From Hoeflea algicola (lineage in GTDB: Bacteria; Pseudomonadota; Alphaproteobacteria; Rhizobiales; Rhizobiaceae), in NCBI RefSeq assembly GCF_026619415.1, contig NZ_JAOVZR010000001.1, forward strand, positions 620,001 to 684,000: a stretch of 64,000 nucleotides of DNA, in the 5' to 3' direction. The notes under the pieces were generated by a model. It searched no databases and was not told the DNA's origin. It worked only from the letters and a program-made list of their open reading frames with translations. Below are positions 41,372-49,241 of this stretch, piece after piece. The number at the start of each line of letters is the position of its first letter. Position 1 is the first letter of the stretch. A program made the translations under genes and the position numbers.

Positions 41372-42757
41372 ATAGAAACTGTTGATAGTTCCGGAAATTT
41401 CCACGACGCGGACAGCAAGTCCATCGTCACCCGCGCGATCGTGCTCATCCCGACCTTGCGCACGCGCAATGCTGCGCCCGGCAGCGGCCCCGATGGTGGC
41501 AATGTCGCCAAGCGACCGGACAGCCACCGACTGGGCGAAGCGGTCGGCCTGGCTGGCGCCATCGAGCTCGAGGTTGCCGAAGCGCTGATCGTGCCGATAT
41601 CCGATCCTCGGCCTTCTACCTTGTTCGGCAAGGGCAAGATGCTCGAGATGAAGGCGCTGATCGATTCGACCGATTCGCAACTGGTCATCGTCGATCATCC
41701 GCTGACGCCGGTACAGCAGCGCAATCTGGAGAAGGAATGGGCGGTCAAGGTGATCGACCGTACCGGCCTGATCCTGGAAATCTTCGGTCGCCGTGCCTCC
41801 ACCAAGGAAGGCGTGTTGCAGGTCGAACTCGCCCATCTCAATTACCAAAAAGGCCGGCTGGTCCGCAGCTGGACCCACCTTGAACGTCAGCGTGGCGGCG
41901 GCGGCTTCATGGGTGGCCCCGGAGAAACTCAGATCGAGGCCGATAGGCGCCTGCTGCAGGAGCGCATCATCAAGCTTGAGCGAGAGCTCGAACAGGTGCG
42001 CCGCACACGGCAGTTGCACCGCGCCAAGCGCAAGAAGGTGCCGCATCCGATCGTGGCCCTTGTCGGCTACACTAATGCCGGCAAATCGACCCTGTTCAAC
42101 CGGCTGACCGGTGCAGAGGTGCTGGCCGAAGACATGCTGTTTGCCACGCTCGATCCGACGCTGCGCCGGATGAAGCTGCCGCATGGCGCCACGGTGATCC
42201 TGTCGGACACGGTGGGCTTCATTTCCAATCTGCCGACGCATCTGGTCGCAGCTTTCCGCGCTACGCTCGAAGAGGTTGTGGAAGCTGACCTGATCCTGCA
42301 TGTGCGCGACATGTCCGATCCCGACCGCAATTCCCAGGCCACGGATGTCGAGGCGATCCTGAAAAGTCTTGGTGTCGGCGAGGAAAAGCCCGGCCAGATG
42401 CTGGAAGTCTGGAACAAGGTGGATCTGCTCGACGACGATGCCGCGGACGCGCTCCGCACCCGCGCGGCTTCCGGCGAGGCGATCGTGGTCTCGGCCTTGA
42501 AAGGCGAGGGCGTCGACACGCTGCTGACTGCGGTCGAATCGCGCATTTCAGGTGAACTTGTCACCCGAACGGTGCGGCTCGGTACCCAGCAATTGCAGGT
42601 GATGTCCTGGATTTATGACCGGGGCAGGGTCAAGGACCGGATCGATCACGAAGACGGCTCGGTTGAGGTCACCGCCGAATTCACGGCTGCCGACAGCCTC
42701 GATCTCGACCGGCAACTGGGCTTGGGCCCGAAGCCCGCCGACGATTGGGATGACTGA
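41372..42757 (+). CDS. hflX: GTPase HflX (start codon unclear)
   Basis: HflX is a ribosome-associated GTPase that splits stalled ribosomes. The protein has the HflX N-domain with ISDPRPSTLFGKGKM, the long coiled coil, GGPGETQIEADRRLL, the G1 motif GYTNAGKSTLF, G3 DTVGF and G4 NKVD. No ATG, GTG or TTG occurs in frame between the hfq stop and TRAIVLIP, where the conserved part begins. An ATA at 41372 follows GGGAAAA at a good distance and may be a non-standard start. The alternatives are ATG 41258 inside hfq or GTG 41441, which would clip the first strand. Confidence 0.9.
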   Translation: METVDSSGNFHDADSKSIVTRAIVLIPTLRTRNAAPGSGPDGGNVAKRPDSHRLGEAVGLAGAIELEVAEALIVPISDPRPSTLFGKGKMLEMKALIDSTDSQLVIVDHPLTPVQQRNLEKEWAVKVIDRTGLILEIFGRRASTKEGVLQVELAHLNYQKGRLVRSWTHLERQRGGGGFMGGPGETQIEADRRLLQERIIKLERELEQVRRTRQLHRAKRKKVPHPIVALVGYTNAGKSTLFNRLTGAEVLAEDMLFATLDPTLRRMKLPHGATVILSDTVGFISNLPTHLVAAFRATLEEVVEADLILHVRDMSDPDRNSQATDVEAILKSLGVGEEKPGQMLEVWNKVDLLDDDAADALRTRAASGEAIVVSALKGEGVDTLLTAVESRISGELVTRTVRLGTQQLQVMSWIYDRGRVKDRIDHEDGSVEVTAEFTAADSLDLDRQLGLGPKPADDWDD

Positions 42758-42865
42758 TGTAACCCGCGGTGAGATGGGTTCGTCGGAGCGAACACTGCCT
42801 GCGTGAATTCATCCGTTATGGCGCCGTGCGTAAAGATACAAATAATACTGTGTTGCTGTTGAGCA

Positions 42866-43425
42866 TCAGCGAAAAGGTGGTGCTATATTTTGAAGTAAAC
42901 CTGCCAGCACGGCCTGACGTCCCGTTCCGGTCTTGGTGATCACCCTCTTCATGTAGAATCGACAAGTGGAAGACTTTATATTCATGATTTGTGAAATTTG
43001 GTCTATAGTCATTCCATCGCCAAGCCCTTTAGCAACTTTAGCTTCAGAGGGCGTCAAATCAAACAATCCTTGTAGAATACTCGCATCCGGCATGATTTTT
43101 TGCATCAGTGGTGTAATGACAGCAATCAGTTTTGCTGTAGAGAATATATCTCTGACCACTCCACGAACTGGGATCAGGTGAAGAACTGACGGTGGTTGGT
43201 CAGAGGCAGCTTCAATCGGAATGGATCCGATTCTGGTTAGTGAACCAGTACTGGAAATTTCTGCAAGCAATCCCGAAAGCAAACTATCGGCCCTCTTGTC
43301 GATAATCGTAAATCTATCGTGCCGGTCCTGTACCACTGCCGGGATCAATGAGGCCATGTGATCATTAGCGTAGATGGTCTTGCCCCGGACTCCAAGGAGT
43401 GCTGCGGCCAGACCTACTTCGTCCA
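42866..43425 (-). pseudogene. LuxR-type regulator, C-terminal part (split by IS21)
   Basis: This is the 3' half of a LuxR-family transcriptional regulator. Reading the minus strand, EVGLAAALLGVRGKTIYAN continues the domain broken at 46013. The half ends with a LuxR-type helix-turn-helix: LTPSEAKVAKGLGDGMTID, then ISQIMNIKSSTCRFYMKRV and KTGTGRQAVLAGLL. The present open frame has a short false N-terminus made of IS terminal DNA. Joined to the 5' half, with one target duplication removed, it gives a 360-residue protein. It is the last gene of the Slam/lipoprotein locus. Confidence 0.88.
43421..43425. repeat. Left target-site duplication (GTCCA)
   Basis: The five bases GTCCA flank the IS element here and again at 46013-46017. 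Removal of the element and one copy restores the regulator reading frame exactly. Confidence 0.85.
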
Positions 43426-43431
43426 CTGCGT

Positions 43432-43523
43432 ATTCCGGGACGATCCGGCCACTGATTCCGATAGCATCCGGCCACCCATTCCGATTTGATCCGGCCGGGG
43501 ATTCCGGGGCATCCGGCCACCCC
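43432..43523. repeat. Four tandem 23-bp repeats at the IS21 left end
   Basis: Four copies start at 43432, 43455, 43478 and 43501, each exactly 23 bases apart, with consensus ATTCCG-N4/5-ATCCGGCC followed by CACC or CGGG. They are probable IstA-binding sites. Confidence 0.85.
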
Positions 43524-43604
43524 CATTTCAACCCAGTTTAGGCTGCTGCGAGGCGATCTGTAACAGGGCTACTGTTCCGTTCCTTTGGATGGAGAGAGCC
43601 CTTT

Positions 43605-45134
43605 ATGAAGAGATTGCCTATGCGGAAGATAAGGGAAGCCCTGCGGCTTCGGGCGGATGGATTTTCAGGCCGCCAGGTGGCGCAAAGCCTGTGCGTGGCC
43701 CGTGCGACGATTTCGGAATATTTTCGGCGCGCTGATCTGGAAGGTTTGAGCTGGCCTCTGTCTGCTGATCTGTCGGACGCCGACCTTGAGAACCGCCTGT
43801 TTCCCGTTTGCCCCGGCGATGTCCGTCGCGCGGTTCCTCAGCCTGTCTGGGCGCATGTGCATGCCGAGTTGCGGCGCAAGGGCGTGACGCTGTCGCTGCT
43901 GTGGGAGGAGTATCGCGGGGTTCATCACGATGGATACGGCTATAGCCGATACTGTGAGCTCTACACCCGCTGGGAAGGCAAGCTGTCTCCGGTGATGCGT
44001 CAGCGTCATCCTGCAGGCGAGCGGCTGTTTGTCGATTACGCGGGCCCGACAGTTGATGTTGTCTGCCCCAAAACGGGAGAGGTGCGCACCGCACAAATCT
44101 TTGTCGCGACGCTGGGAGCGTCCAATTACACCTATGTCGAAGCCAGCTGGACACAGGGCCTGCCGGACTGGGTATCCAGCCATGTGCGTGCCTTTGAGTT
44201 CTTCGGTGGCGTGCCTGCGCAGCTGGTTCCAGACAATCTCAAGGCAGGCGTCACCAAGGCCTGTTTTTATGATCCTGAGATCAATCGCACCTATGGTGAT
44301 ATGGCGGCACATTACGATACCGCCATCGTTCCGGCGCGGCCTGGAAAGCCGAAAGACAAGGCAAAGGTGGAAGGCGCTGTTTTGCTGGCCGAGCGCTGGA
44401 TTTTGGCGCGGCTGCGCAACCAGCACTTTTTTGGCCTTGATGAGGTGAACGCTGCCATCCGGCCATTGCTGGATCAGCTCAACGGCAAAGTCAGTCGCCA
44501 TCTTGGTGCAAGCCGCCGCGATCTGTTTGAACGCCTGGATCGGCCCGCTCTGAAGCCCTTGTCTATGGAGGCCTATGTTTATGCCGAATGGAAGCAGTGC
44601 CGCGCGGGCCTCGATTACCATGTCGATATTGGCCGCCATTATTACTCGGTGCCGCATCAGTTGCTGAAGCAAAAACTATGGGCAAGGATCACCGCACGCA
44701 CCGTAGAGGTATACTTTAATGGGCAACGCGTTGCCTCTCACGCCAGAACCTCGGGCAATCGCCAGCACTCCACGATCCGCGATCACATGCCCGCCCATCA
44801 TCGCTTCCGCGAGGATTGGACGCCACAGCGTATCCGCGGGCAAGCTGTGCGCATCGGCCCAAATGTTGAGGTCTTTGTCGATGTGATCATGCGCCAGCGC
44901 AAACATCCCGAACAAGGATACAGAACGTGCCTCGGTGTTTTACGGCTGGCCAAGACCTTCGGGCGGGAGCGCCTGGATGCCGCCTGTTTGCGTGCGCTTG
45001 AGATCAACGCCCACTCCTACACATCCCTGCATTCCATTCTGAAGAATGGTTTGGACCGTCAGCGCCGCGAACCCACCACGGACGGCCCTGCGATCACTCA
45101 CCCCAATATCCGTGGTGCGGATTACTTCCATTGA
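43605..45134 (+). CDS. istA: IS21 transposase IstA
   Basis: The 509-residue transposase has an N-terminal helix-turn-helix (about 15-50, GFSGRQVAQSLCVARATISEY) and a DDE integrase core. The likely catalytic residues are the Asp in LFVDYAGP, the Asp in LVPDNLKAGV and the Glu in KAKVEGAVL. A C-terminal beta-rich domain follows. The GGAGAGAG ribosome site lies eight bases before ATG 43605. istB starts 12 bases after its stop. Confidence 0.96.
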   Translation: MKRLPMRKIREALRLRADGFSGRQVAQSLCVARATISEYFRRADLEGLSWPLSADLSDADLENRLFPVCPGDVRRAVPQPVWAHVHAELRRKGVTLSLLWEEYRGVHHDGYGYSRYCELYTRWEGKLSPVMRQRHPAGERLFVDYAGPTVDVVCPKTGEVRTAQIFVATLGASNYTYVEASWTQGLPDWVSSHVRAFEFFGGVPAQLVPDNLKAGVTKACFYDPEINRTYGDMAAHYDTAIVPARPGKPKDKAKVEGAVLLAERWILARLRNQHFFGLDEVNAAIRPLLDQLNGKVSRHLGASRRDLFERLDRPALKPLSMEAYVYAEWKQCRAGLDYHVDIGRHYYSVPHQLLKQKLWARITARTVEVYFNGQRVASHARTSGNRQHSTIRDHMPAHHRFREDWTPQRIRGQAVRIGPNVEVFVDVIMRQRKHPEQGYRTCLGVLRLAKTFGRERLDAACLRALEINAHSYTSLHSILKNGLDRQRREPTTDGPAITHPNIRGADYFH

Positions 45135-45146
45135 AGAGGATAGAGA

Positions 45147-45905
45147 ATGCTTGATCACCCAACGCTGGATCAGCTCAAAACACTCAGGCTCGACGGCATG
45201 GCAGAAGCCTTTGCCGAGATGCAAAAACAGGACGGCACAGCCGGGCTTAGCCACGCTGAATGGCTTGGGCTGCTCATTGATCGAGAGACCGCCAGTCGTG
45301 AGACGAGGCGATTTGAAAGCCGCATGCGTACAGCAAAACTGCGCCACGTCGGTGCCTCGCCGGAGGACGTGGATTACAAGTCGCGGCGCGGCCTCGACAA
45401 AGCCATGTTCCAGCAGATGCTGACCGGGCGCTGGATCAAGGACAAGCGCAACCTGATGATCACTGGCCCCTGCGGCGTTGGCAAAACATGGTTGGCCTGC
45501 GCTCTGGCGCAAGCCGCCTGCCGAGACGGTATCACTGTGCTGTACAAGCGCATGCCACGTCTCTTTGATGAATTGGAACTGGCCCATGGTGACGGACGCT
45601 TTCCGCGTCTGTTCAAGGCCCTTACCAAAACTCAACTGCTAATCCTGGACGACTGGGGACCGGATCGCCTCAATGCCAGTCAGCGTCGTGACCTTATGGA
45701 AATAGTCGAGGACAGATACGAGGTTGGATCAACCTTGATCACAAGCCAATTGCCCATCGACACCTGGCATGACGTGATCGGGGAACCCACCTTCGCCGAT
45801 GCCATTCTCGATCGCCTCGTACACAACGCCTATCGCGTCGAACTCGACGGCCAGAGCATGAGGAAAACCAAACTCGGAACAGGTGACGAAAGCATCCAAT
45901 CCTGA
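45147..45905 (+). CDS. istB: IS21 helper ATPase IstB
   Basis: The 252-residue AAA+ ATPase assists IstA in target choice and strand transfer. It has Walker A GPCGVGKTW near 107-115 and Walker B LLILDDWG near 170. The N-terminal domain (LDHPTLDQLKTLRLDGMAEA) is the usual IstB opening. It is intact, which supports a functional element. Confidence 0.96.
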   Translation: MLDHPTLDQLKTLRLDGMAEAFAEMQKQDGTAGLSHAEWLGLLIDRETASRETRRFESRMRTAKLRHVGASPEDVDYKSRRGLDKAMFQQMLTGRWIKDKRNLMITGPCGVGKTWLACALAQAACRDGITVLYKRMPRLFDELELAHGDGRFPRLFKALTKTQLLILDDWGPDRLNASQRRDLMEIVEDRYEVGSTLITSQLPIDTWHDVIGEPTFADAILDRLVHNAYRVELDGQSMRKTKLGTGDESIQS

Positions 45906-45941
45906 TAACCAAATCATCAGGCCTCGCAGCCGCTATATAAG

Positions 45942-46006
45942 GGTGGCCGGATACCCCGGTTTAGGTGGCCGGATGTTATCGGAATGGCCGGCCGGATACT
46001 CCGGAA
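45942..46006. repeat. Three sub-terminal repeats at the IS21 right end
   Basis: Three inverted copies of the same ATTCCG/ATCCGGCC unit found at the left end occupy this stretch, with GGTGGCCGGAT seen twice on the plus strand and GGCCGGCCGGAT once. Confidence 0.8.
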
Positions 46007-46012
46007 TGCGCA

Positions 46013-46017
46013 GTCCA
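46013..46017. repeat. Right target-site duplication (GTCCA)
   Basis: This is the second copy of GTCCA flanking the IS21-family element; the first is at 43421-43425. Confidence 0.85.
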
Positions 46018-46540
46018 ATGCATTTGCCGCGGCTACAGCCCGTTCAAAGCCCAAACGCGCGGAGAGTAGAACCGCGCGGGCAAGATGTGGCCGATACTCG
46101 TCGAGAACCGCAATTTGCTCAGGGGTTATAGGCCCCAATGATGGAGGACTATCCGTATGCAGGATAAAGGAATCCCCATTCGGCGTGAAAATGGCGGTTG
46201 CTGCGGATCTTCCCAGGCTTCTTGGGTACAGAAAATCTTGATACAGGCTGCTTTGCGAAAGTTCTGCATCTGTCCAAATGTCTGATTCCGTCAAAAAACC
46301 GGAATGTTTTTTCTCAAGTAGCATCCTTGTGCGGTTTGGCCCCTCCGGGTGCCTGTAGTTGTGTTTCACTATCTCACTATAGGCTTCTGATGATGCTACC
46401 CAGTCGAATTTTGTGCCAGTTGTGGAAACCAAGACGCCATGAGAGCCACCGATGAGGTTCGCCAGACGACACAGAATTGCCGGCCAGTTTTTTGTAATGA
46501 CCGATGCCTCGTATATGGCGTCGACTAACAATTCGCTCAT
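46013..46540 (-). pseudogene. LuxR-type regulator, N-terminal part (split by IS21)
   Basis: The 5' half of the regulator starts at ATG 46540 (MSELLVDAIYEASV) and gives 176 intact codons ending at ANALD, where the element begins. The open frame upstream of 46540 is AT-rich leader. The N-domain carries no membrane helix or obvious PAS motif and ends in the linker helix VLDEYRPHLARAVLLSARLG common in this regulator type. Without its helix-turn-helix half it should be unable to bind DNA. It lies 131 bases after the slam gene, in the same direction. Confidence 0.88.
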
Positions 46541-46671
46541 GGTGGGTTTTCTTCGTACCTCCAGCAGCAACTCTTTGCTTCGCTGTATTGTAATAAACTG
46601 TGAGAAAAAATAAATAACGATAAGGAATGATTCAGTATGTGAGTGCAAAAAACCATAAATACTAATGGTAA

Positions 46672-47988
46672 CTAGAAGTTTCTGGTAAGATAAATTCCAA
46701 TGTCGTGGGTGTCATAATCGTAAAAACTTATGTTCGAAATTTGTTTTGTGTATTGGTAAGAGATTTCAGGGCGGAAGCCATGGTAGGAAAAATCGCGGTG
46801 AGAGGCGGTCATCCCCAGTGACCAGAGCGTGTCATTTCGCGTGATCGTCGTGCCGGGAAATGGGCCGAGATAATGGTGTGTTTCAGCCTTGGCAAAGAAA
46901 TTCGTCATCAAACCACCTGCCCAATTCTTGTTGATCTGAAATTGGCCCTGCAGATCATTATGGTCCAGATGGTTTAGAGTTGTACGTTCTGCTGTCACAT
47001 TAGCCGACAGCATCATGGAGAGAGTAGGGGTGTATGCGTGGTGAAATGCGATGGAACCCCTGGCTATCCAACCGTCTCGATAAGCGAATCTGTCATCATA
47101 CTCTTGCCGCCGGAGCGAACCACCGAAAGACAAGGTGTTGAGTGGCATAAGTTTGTAGGCGGTGTTTGCGAACACGCCGTAACGGAGCATATAGGGCTGC
47201 CATCCTCGCCATTGATGATCTGCAGTCAGCCCAATCTCTGCATTGAAACCGCGCAATTTTTGCGCGATTGCAACGCTCGTTGAAAGGGTGGTTTCGTCGA
47301 ACTGGCGGTCTTGGTATTTCTTCGTATCAACTGCGCCACTCCACAAAATTTGGCGCTGGTCCCCAAGGGCGAAACCGCGACGAAACGAGCCTCCGGCCGC
47401 AACGCCAACGCCGCTTTGTTGGCGGCCTTCGTCATTGATGACGAACTTGGCTCCGCCAATCGTTATGGTTTTGTTTCCTGTCCCCCGGTTGACGTTTGTG
47501 GACGGCAAAATGCTGAAATATCCGGAGAACGATAGGGGTTTCTGATCTCTTATGGCGGAGCCAAATGACGTGGCCTGACGTCGCACTTCAGGATCGTCTG
47601 AGCTCAGTTCGATTATTCTGAGTTGATACGACGCAGAGTCGAAATGGCCTTCTGATGCCAATGTTTTCGCTAATTCTATCCGCGACGGTGTGAAATTTGG
47701 TTGGCGCGAGAGGATAAAGCGGAATATTTCCACCGCCTTTGCATCTTCTCCCTTATGGCGCGCAATCAGTCCTTCGAGATGAGCAATATGAAGCGACGTA
47801 TCCTTGCGACCGGCAAGAAATCTGCGCAGCTCATCTCGCGCCGCATCATACTCTCCTGCCTCAAGGAGACCTATTATAGCATTCGGCTGTTGAGCCGGAG
47901 CAGCTACAGCCACGGCCTGAAAAATGCCCAGTGCGGTGATGCAGACACCGAGCACGAACAAGCGACAACACGCGGAAATACAGGACAT
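46672..47988 (-). CDS. Slam-type surface lipoprotein assembly modifier
   Basis: This outer-membrane protein is predicted to move the lipoprotein encoded just upstream to the cell surface. The 438 residues begin with a signal peptide (cleavage near AVAAPA, about residue 31). A TPR-like helical domain follows (about 38-150, with YDAARDELRRFLAGRK and HLEGLIARHKGEDAKAVEIF). A long beta-rich domain of alternating aromatic strands (about 155-438) ends in a terminal phenylalanine (TRNF), as in outer-membrane barrels. This two-part plan and length match Slam proteins. Codon use is AT-richer than in neighbouring genes, suggesting transfer. No clear ribosome site precedes the ATG. Confidence 0.85.
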   Translation of the reverse strand: MSCISACCRLFVLGVCITALGIFQAVAVAAPAQQPNAIIGLLEAGEYDAARDELRRFLAGRKDTSLHIAHLEGLIARHKGEDAKAVEIFRFILSRQPNFTPSRIELAKTLASEGHFDSASYQLRIIELSSDDPEVRRQATSFGSAIRDQKPLSFSGYFSILPSTNVNRGTGNKTITIGGAKFVINDEGRQQSGVGVAAGGSFRRGFALGDQRQILWSGAVDTKKYQDRQFDETTLSTSVAIAQKLRGFNAEIGLTADHQWRGWQPYMLRYGVFANTAYKLMPLNTLSFGGSLRRQEYDDRFAYRDGWIARGSIAFHHAYTPTLSMMLSANVTAERTTLNHLDHNDLQGQFQINKNWAGGLMTNFFAKAETHHYLGPFPGTTITRNDTLWSLGMTASHRDFSYHGFRPEISYQYTKQISNISFYDYDTHDIGIYLTRNF

Positions 47989-48014
47989 GATTATTGCCAG
48001 CTTGAGCGTGCAGC

Positions 48015-48047
48015 CTCACCGTCGTATAAATTTTGCACGGCGGTGAG
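48015..48047 (-). promoter_or_regulatory. Intercistronic stem-loop between lipoprotein and slam genes
   Basis: On the minus strand CTCACCGCCGT and ACGACGGTGAG form an 11-bp stem with one mismatch around an 11-base AT-rich loop. It lies 21 bases after the lipoprotein stop and 27 bases before the slam start, with no T-run. It may stabilise the upstream message or reduce read-through. Confidence 0.6.
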
Positions 48048-48067
48048 TTGCTGATTAGGATCAAGAA

Positions 48068-49039
48068 TTAATTTTTGCCGCCAGCAAAAAATCCATTTCC
48101 AAGAATGACATCTCCGTCGCTGGTTCCTGTTATATCCAAAACGCCGCCTACATCTTCCGCATTGGGTCCGTAGAATCGTCCCGAGTAAGTGGAACCAGCG
48201 ATATCACCGTCGATTGCCGTGTTGAAAGCCGCATCGCCCGACACCGTTCCTCCGGTAAATCCATTGGCGTTTATGCTGCTCGTGCCCATCGCTATCTGGC
48301 CGTTCTGCGGCGTCCGCGGATCCCAGCCATTATTCGCACCGTTTCTTACTTCGCTCATAAGGTTGGAAATTGTTCCGTTGACGTTGCCAGCCGCAAAATC
48401 TGCATTGAGCGCCAGGTCCCCTCGAACTCGGGTTCGTGTCTTTCGGTCATTGGCCAGAGCGGTTTCCGCTAGCGCATAGCCCGTATAAGTTGCATTCGGA
48501 AGCGCTTTGATGGTGTCTGGTTTTGTCTCGGCGCCAACTACTGCAAATCCGCGCGTACCCATGCCATCTGTATCGGAATAATAATTCCATACCTGCAGGA
48601 AGTTGGTGTCGGTGCCGGCTTCGAGGTCATTAATCGACCCGGACCAACTAAACAGGCCCTTGTAATCGCCGCCACCGTTCGGGTTTTTCTCATAGCCAAA
48701 GGATGTTGTACCGTCAGGTTCGATGAACTTGTCGGCGGCGGCAAAGCTCACTACTTCACCATTGACATTCATGTCGACACCGCCAGTCTTGTTCTTGGTG
48801 ACGGAGAAGTCGGCCGCCGGAGCCTTGGCGATCGTGTTCTTAGTGTAATCGAGCGTCTTTGTGACAGTCGTCTTTTTTGAAGCCTTCAATGAAGTTCCCG
48901 CATTGAAGTGTTTGGCCGCTGTATCCGTCGCGTCTGCGGCAAGCAGATCTCCGATATCCATTGCGGTTAGCGTTTTATTGCACCCGGTTAAAACCAATGG
49001 GATTGCTGCGATCGCAACCAGTGTAAATTTCGTATCCAT
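48068..49039 (-). CDS. TbpB-like surface lipoprotein (probable Slam cargo)
   Basis: The 323-residue protein has a lipoprotein signal with lipobox LTGC (Cys20). The mature part is Thr/Asp/Asn/Gly-rich and beta-strand-like. Its end carries YSGRFYGPNAEDVGG (285-299), the signature of the transferrin-binding-protein-B-type C-terminal eight-stranded barrel. It is about half the size of two-lobed TbpB, so it has one lobe, like haemophilin- or factor-H-binding-type proteins. The ligand is unknown. It lies directly upstream of the slam gene in the same direction, the usual cargo/translocator pairing. GGGGCGG precedes the ATG. Confidence 0.85.
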   Translation of the reverse strand: MDTKFTLVAIAAIPLVLTGCNKTLTAMDIGDLLAADATDTAAKHFNAGTSLKASKKTTVTKTLDYTKNTIAKAPAADFSVTKNKTGGVDMNVNGEVVSFAAADKFIEPDGTTSFGYEKNPNGGGDYKGLFSWSGSINDLEAGTDTNFLQVWNYYSDTDGMGTRGFAVVGAETKPDTIKALPNATYTGYALAETALANDRKTRTRVRGDLALNADFAAGNVNGTISNLMSEVRNGANNGWDPRTPQNGQIAMGTSSINANGFTGGTVSGDAAFNTAIDGDIAGSTYSGRFYGPNAEDVGGVLDITGTSDGDVILGNGFFAGGKN

Positions 49040-49105
49040 TATCCGCCCCGTTGTTGTTTATTAGTTGGTTCGGTTGAAAGCTACGCAATTTCCACCTGGC
49101 CCACA

Positions 49106-49121
49106 TCTACCATCTGGTAGA
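49106..49121. promoter_or_regulatory. Perfect 16-bp dyad upstream of the lipoprotein gene
   Basis: The sequence TCTACCA-TC-TGGTAGA is a perfect 7+2+7 palindrome centred about 74 bases before the lipoprotein start. Position and symmetry suit an operator, possibly for the locus's own LuxR-type regulator, which is now broken. Confidence 0.55.
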
Positions 49122-49213
49122 GAATGGAAACAAGATACAACTATTCGGAACAATGCTGGGGATAAGAAACAGGCTTTGGCAACCTAGTCGATCGCCGGCC
49201 CCGGATGCAGCCT

Positions 49214-49237
49214 CTCGGCGCGGCCGACGGCGCCGAG
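49214..49237 (-). terminator. Hairpin after mazG
   Basis: The perfect 8-bp arms CTCGGCGC and GCGCCGAG enclose eight bases just past the mazG stop on the minus strand. There is no T-run, so it would be a weak terminator. Confidence 0.4.
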
Positions 49238-49241
49238 CAAT

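Follow-up and report, generated by a model that had tools for sequence, protein, structure and literature searches.

The window analysed here, a stretch of 64,000 nucleotides (G000:C1:620001-684000) of a 5.18-Mb Hoeflea genome, carries between hflX and mazG the gene of a single-lobe TbpB-type lipoprotein (SLP) and that of a Slam-type outer-membrane protein (Table 1). Both lie on the minus strand, with the SLP gene preceding the Slam gene across a gap of 79 bp, and both reading frames are full-length and unbroken. The initial annotation had described a Slam/surface lipoprotein pair in a rhizobial-type genome, and this description holds up well: the two open reading frames lie where it placed them, in this order and directly next to each other, with LTGC, YSGRFYGPNAEDVGG and the terminal Phe all present, the genus is Hoeflea, and the checks that it had named (a Slam profile, a TbpB_B_D profile and a fold model of each protein) came out in its favor. 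The same layout recurs in other Hyphomicrobiales, and the pairing is therefore not due to chance. Between positions 46000 and 49300, neither promoter patterns (1 versus 3.1 in shuffles) nor terminator patterns (4 versus 3.8) were in excess, and they thus give no support for the cotranscription of the two genes.

Table 1. Features of the locus and of the second pair in the same genome (window positions unless a contig is given)
Feature	Position	Strand	Details
hflX, flanking gene, border of the apparently acquired segment	41228..42757	+	
PAS/LuxR-type regulator, C-terminal piece, GerE helix-turn-helix	42866..43531	-	profile positions 191-384 of 389
IS21-type insertion between the regulator pieces	43430..46008	.	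ends approximate, by eye
IstA-like transposase	43605..45134	+	Mu-transpos_C_2 3.1e-18; rve 3.8e-6, below its cut-off
IstB-like ATP-binding protein	45147..45905	+	PF01695 (IstB_IS21) 1.3e-71
PAS/LuxR-type regulator, N-terminal piece	45917..46648	-	profile positions 8-185 of 389
Slam / T11SS outer-membrane protein	46672..47988	-	438 aa, C-terminal Phe (...TRNF); ORF list, Pfam, model
Slam, SlipAM/DUF560 14-strand barrel	46675..47529	-	residues 154-438; Pfam and model
Slam, TPR-type helical N-terminal part	47542..47889	-	residues 34-149; Pfam and model
SLP, single-lobe TbpB-type lipoprotein, predicted T11SS cargo	48068..49039	-	323 aa; ORF list, Pfam, NCBIfam, fold model, relatives
SLP, TbpB_B_D barrel domain	48128..48496	-	residues 182-304; Pfam
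SLP, motif YSGRFYGPNAEDVGG	48143..48187	-	residues 285-299; alignment
SLP, lipobox LTGC	48980..48991	-	residues 17-20; by eye and alignment
mazG, flanking gene, other border of the apparently acquired segment	49242..50063	-	
Second pair, TbpB_B_D lipoprotein directly before Slam	G000:C1:2243473-2245902		LuxR-alpha/beta-hydrolase fusion next

The lipid Cys20 of the SLP, in a lipobox read by eye, is common to all 18 aligned SLP rows. In Pfam, TbpB_B_D scored above its cut-off (8.7e-9, 36.4 bits, cut-off 26) and FHBP_C slightly below (5e-6, 27.7 bits, cut-off 28.1). The NCBIfam family slam_lipo (NF041636) reached 1.3e-11 but only 45 bits against a curated cut-off of 80, and the SLP is therefore not filed as that equivalog. 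The predicted model (mean pLDDT 89.6) agrees with the profiles, its single lobe corresponding to the TbpB C-lobe and its fold relatives including haemophilin, HpuA, and TbpB, which bears out the earlier proposal of a TbpB-like protein with one lobe. In a profile search of the PDB, two TbpB chains were matched weakly (E 0.008) in an alignment that covers GGFYGPKAEEMAG, the counterpart of YSGRFYGPNAEDVGG in the two solved chains 4o3x_B and 3hoe_A. The single SLP sequence as a query gave chance matches at the top (WD-repeat protein 5 at 0.19, with NHBA at 3.2 and 4.4), and a profile was thus needed to reach the TbpB chains. The protein is not TbpB itself, which has two lobes and a linked TbpA: its 323 residues form one lobe, and the only TonB plug match of the genome is at least 1.48 Mb away. 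The alignments used here took 31 of 41 Slam proteins (A1) and 18 of 19 SLP proteins (A2), the most distant ones being left out.

The Slam assignment is carried by SlipAM (PF04575), which matches residues 154-438 far above its cut-off (6e-29, 101.9 bits, cut-off 22). TPR_Slam remained below its own (2.1e-7, 31.7 bits, cut-off 35.2), and the predicted model (pLDDT 84.5) has helices at residues 34-149, in a domain that is probably periplasmic, followed by 14 barrel strands counted by eye on the DSSP string, so that the suggested plan of a TPR half and a barrel half is confirmed. Fourteen is the strand number given for T11SS proteins, against 16 for PgaA, in the accessible text of PMC8406197. In Foldseek, the first matches of the model were BcsC and PelB, and the best also included OmpG and CymA; since these are other TPR-barrel exporters and porins, the fold alone is no proof of a lipoprotein translocon. 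The database name of the Chelativorans relatives of the protein (45-46% identity) is "surface lipoprotein assembly modifier." A search of the genome contigs with the single window Slam gave no match, and the alignment as a query led to 20 loci.

On the far side of Slam from the SLP gene lie both pieces of a PAS/LuxR-type regulator, a feature absent from the initial annotation, split by an element that has the IstA and IstB genes and the terminal inverted repeats of the IS21 family. Its arms (43476-43522 and 45941-45987) are imperfect inverted repeats of 47 nt with 79% identity, and the insertion point is between the N-terminal part of the regulator and its PAS/HTH part. For the N-terminal piece, the later ATG of MSELLVDAIYE is a likelier start than the listed one. 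The C-terminal piece scored above the GerE cut-off (27.2 bits, cut-off 23.5), which among seven relatives scanned was reached only by the regulator of L023. Because of the split, the expression of the pair in this strain is probably constitutive or off. The short word CGCA, noted by eye, is common to both edges of the element and may be a target duplication.

The cassette genes have a G+C content of 50-52%, against 60% for the window, and 15 of the 16 lowest 1-kb G+C steps in the window begin at 42500-48500. In our sample of 18 Hoeflea genomes, two of which are 75-77% complete, a Slam of the window's type occurs in the window's own genome only. hflX and mazG lie on one contig within 10 kb in 14 of the 18, and in the 13 of these other than the window's (L047-L059), the interval holds no SLP, Slam, or regulator relative; the hflX and mazG matches are 44-79 bp apart in four (L050, L051, L057, and L058) and 0.2 kb apart in L059, and other ORFs fill the remaining eight intervals. 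The low G+C content, the presence in 1 of 18 genomes, and the near contact of hflX and mazG in four relatives together make the pair look acquired. The split regulator and the single occurrence would also suit a decaying island in which the cassette is being lost and the pair is no longer expressed. We regard this as unlikely in view of the unbroken, full-length SLP and Slam frames, and it is compatible with the reading preferred below, which concerns the intact cassette.

The space at 42758-49241 and its counterparts in L047-L059 are variable across Hoeflea and may be near-empty, of an nnrS type, or filled with low-G+C inserts. An NnrS gene is confirmed by Pfam in L054, with similar ORFs recognized by eye in L047, L048, L052, and L055; L056 has a low-G+C ORF, L053 has a membrane-protein-like ORF, and L049 has a Thy1 gene within an insert of 46% G+C. 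A flavin-dependent thymidylate synthase gene, to be compared with the Thy1-type gene of L049, often adjoins T11SS genes in marine Rhodobacteraceae, according to the accessible part of PMC12282271.

In a maximum-likelihood tree of 45 Slam rows, which left out L065 as coming from the same genome as L023, the window's Slam belongs to a clade of 10 (support 97/91) with Mesorhizobium, Pseudaminobacter, Devosia, Pelagibacterium, three Chelativorans, a Rhizobiaceae MAG, and one further genome (L073). Eight rows outside this clade are of the Rhodobacterales type. An SLP match lies beside Slam in all 10 clade loci and a regulator match in 9, the exception being L022, and where there is a match, the nearest regulator piece is 0-1.4 kb from Slam. 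The regulator is upstream of the pair in L017, L021, L025, and L073, downstream in the window and in L018, L019, and L020, and divergent from it in L023 (Pelagibacterium xiamenense). Mesorhizobium sp. Root157 (L017), Pseudaminobacter arsenicus (L025), and L073 have an unbroken regulator-SLP-Slam order, Devosia nitrariae (L021) has two regulators before SLP-Slam, and the three Chelativorans (L018-L020) have one or two after it. The sites also differ: by our own reading of the neighbor ORFs, the cassette adjoins lon in the Chelativorans loci and comes after rpoC in L025, and from these different chromosomal places it seems that the regulator travels with the pair.

The regulator label required 8 changes on the 45-row tree, compared to a mean of 14.3 after shuffling, and none of 500 shuffles gave a number as low, a clustering that is favored by near-copies among the rows. 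Among 38 held-out Slam loci (a count that excludes L017, L018, L019, L020, L021, L023, L025, and L065), 11 had a regulator-profile match within 5 kb. The density of profile matches (1.28 per Mb, 12 genomes) predicts about 0.6 such loci, and that of all GerE matches (165 in 51.5 Mb, or 3.2 per Mb, 11 genomes) about 1.4. GerE (PF00196) as the sole yardstick was set aside because this regulator subfamily is often below its cut-off, and its density was kept as the stricter background. No regulator match was found in the other 27 held-out loci, among them L022 and all eight Rhodobacterales-type rows, or in 15 loci without Slam (L045-L059), many of which are shorter than the Slam loci; L045 and L046, themselves weak matches, have no Slam by profile. 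Five of the 11 matches belong to Hoeflea loci that are nearly copies of one another, two are from a single further genus, and two are weak (L064, a receiver-type response regulator 2.2 kb off, and L074, a 144-aa ORF), so that tail probabilities overstate the certainty of the linkage. In the window's genome, five profile matches correspond to four genes, the weakest at 6.9e-4, and two of the four adjoin the two Slam genes; given 20 GerE matches in the same genome, this proportion concerns one subfamily only. LuxR-type genes may also be neighbors of the pair without controlling it.

The second pair of the genome, which with the adjoining fusion gene spans G000:C1:2243473-2247822 (L005 9473-13822), is like the window's in that a TbpB_B_D lipoprotein gene directly precedes Slam, but it differs in its Slam, which is only 26% identical to that of the window, in the gene for a LuxR-alpha/beta-hydrolase fusion, in its higher G+C content (58-60%), and in its wider spread in the genus. 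Pairs of this type occur in 8 of the 18 Hoeflea genomes, seven of them beyond the window's, with a more divergent copy (40%) in L038. The fusion adjoins the pair in five of the eight; L041 and L042 have the pair and no fusion match. In one other genus, a relative of the fusion also lies after Slam at two loci, L067 and L070, and the one in L067 has hydrolase and GerE matches below the Pfam cut-offs.

Taken together, the families, modeled folds, gene order, linkage, and composition make it probable, in our judgment, that the window holds an acquired SLP-Slam-regulator cassette of the T11SS kind, one that displays a TbpB-fold lipoprotein in association with a LuxR-type regulator and has no TonB receptor linked to it. 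The families of the two proteins point to export by type 11 secretion. By analogy with other Slam systems, for which these steps are established, the SLP would be synthesized with a lipoprotein signal, receive its lipid, and travel to the outer membrane. There the barrel of Slam, which also has a periplasmic TPR domain, would move the SLP across, and the handle-plus-barrel lobe of the SLP would end up anchored on the cell surface. The PAS/LuxR-type regulator, normally linked in the clade, probably controls when the lipoprotein is produced. More tentatively, and with slightly more doubt than belief, we propose a mobile, LuxR-governed T11SS subfamily in the Hyphomicrobiales, in which PAS/LuxR-type sensors, or LuxR-hydrolase fusions in other lineages, would switch on the display of a single-lobe TbpB fold that serves no TonB receptor. 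If this is true, environmental bacteria employ as a regulated surface binder a fold that is otherwise known to bind iron and complement proteins of hosts. With its two divergent pairs, Hoeflea is a place to ask what the TbpB fold does without a host protein. The linked regulators would be a handle on when the display is used, and their association with the pairs, which is testable, offers a means of recognizing more such pairs and of searching for their signal.

Hoeflea species are mostly marine and often associated with algae, and an environmental bacterium would presumably need a ligand different from the host proteins bound in the known systems. The cargo could also be a co-receptor or haemophore that, as in Neisseria, Acinetobacter, and Xenorhabdus, passes haem or a metal carrier to a TonB receptor encoded elsewhere, which would fit the haemophilin, HpuA, and TbpB relatives of its fold, the one plug match in the genome, and the match of the L018 SLP to the HpuA profile (6.6e-6, 26.1 bits, below the cut-off of 29.7). 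However, no TonB plug was found near the loci examined. The window's genome has a single match, located at 4.05 Mb and separated from the pair by 1.48 Mb or more in either direction if the contig is circular. The genomes of the nine other clade members have 18 such matches. For eight of these genomes, the contig that carries Slam could be fixed via the place of the regulator, and it bears none of the matches; two of the eight have no match at all (trivial for G404). At L022, where a plug match in the genome had raised the suspicion of a receptor, the only possible place on the Slam contig is occupied by an amine-oxidase ORF. A tally of neighbor families (57 proteins, consisting of 52 of 75 neighbors plus 5 of the window, the 23 left out including many near-copies) gives the 25 commonest of 137 families and is insufficient alone to exclude a single TonB receptor. 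Among the 18 aligned SLPs, the only histidine conserved in at least half of the rows follows the lipid Cys by two residues and occurs in 11 of them; the window's SLP, with a single His, lacks it, and this speaks against simple haem ligation via a conserved His. By comparison, the accessible part of PMC12282271 describes linkage of the published cluster 1 systems to metal and haem genes. We consider the co-receptor role unlikely. Since no TonB receptor is linked, an adhesin, a shield, or a binder of some environmental or algal ligand is a likelier role for the cargo than that of a co-receptor in iron uptake, and the plug and histidine scans together favor a regulated surface binder or adhesin over such a co-receptor.

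That the barrel exports something else, such as a polysaccharide as BcsC, PelB, and PgaA do, with the neighboring lipoprotein not its cargo, would fit the first Foldseek matches and a PgaA hit of only 0.043 in NCBIfam, but is highly improbable given the SlipAM score, the SLP beside Slam at every clade locus, and the lack of a polysaccharide synthase among the 25 families of the tally.

The acquired display cassette that we prefer is a variant of a known system, to which the acquisition, the regulator association, and the second pair are added. The initial annotation saw host-associated bacteria as the main source of the known Slam systems, a view that needs qualification: in the accessible text of Grossman and co-workers (PMC8406197), nine of ten T11SS clusters belong mainly to water and soil organisms, and a cluster of marine Rhodobacteraceae is described in PMC12282271, so that with T11SS outside pathogens already published, in the text available from both articles, the Hoeflea pair is not a new kind. 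"Little-described" is fair insofar as the seven T11SS proteins verified for cargo secretion all belong to the animal-associated cluster 1, according to the part of PMC12282271 at hand. A literature search, which covered articles apart from their supplements, gave no account of a Hyphomicrobiales branch of T11SS or of a LuxR link in the text accessible, and nothing on a Hoeflea surface lipoprotein or a Mesorhizobium TbpB that bears on the locus. "luxr" and "transcriptional regulator" are absent from the main text of PMC12282271 as available, and no alphaproteobacterial names were found in the accessible part of PMC5449769.

The Neisseria Slam1 and Slam2 systems with TbpB, LbpB, HpuA, and fHbp (T11SS cluster 1A) resemble the Hoeflea locus in a TPR and DUF560-barrel protein encoded near a TbpB_B_D lipoprotein, in the motif FYGPxAExxxG common to the SLP and the solved TbpB chains, and in the match of the SLP lobe to the TbpB C-lobe. 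In contrast, the Hoeflea SLP has one lobe where TbpB has two, no TonB receptor is linked, a PAS/LuxR-type regulator is, and the genus is environmental. The marine cluster 3 systems of Rhodobacteraceae and Roseobacteraceae are alphaproteobacterial like Hoeflea, and 10 of 11 strains share a syntenic locus that includes an eight-stranded-barrel lipoprotein; on the description in the accessible text of PMC12282271, these systems are set apart by genes for DUF1194, thymidylate synthase, and lactoylglutathione lyase. Xenorhabdus NilB/NilC and HrpB/HrpC combine a T11SS protein and a cargo with a C-terminal barrel, as in Hoeflea, but serve host colonization or supply a haemophore alongside TonB genes (PMC12282271 and PMC8406197, available text), while no linked TonB gene was found for the Hoeflea pair.

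Further loci were taken from 38 matches listed, 4 of which were already in the set and 16 of which were added; the 18 left out include strong ones near contig ends. Loci L028 to about L036 were judged by profile only. In Mesorhizobium sp. Root157, the SLP gene (L017 6840-7933) is split over two frames, by a frameshift or a sequencing error. Other Hyphomicrobiales Slam genes (L062, L063, L066, L068, L071, L072, and more) have no neighbor matching either lipoprotein profile and may serve a different kind of cargo. L027, L029, and L033 (Nitratireductor indicus, Hoeflea MAG SAT27, and a Hyphomicrobiales MAG) form a separate, well-supported Slam clade away from that of the window.
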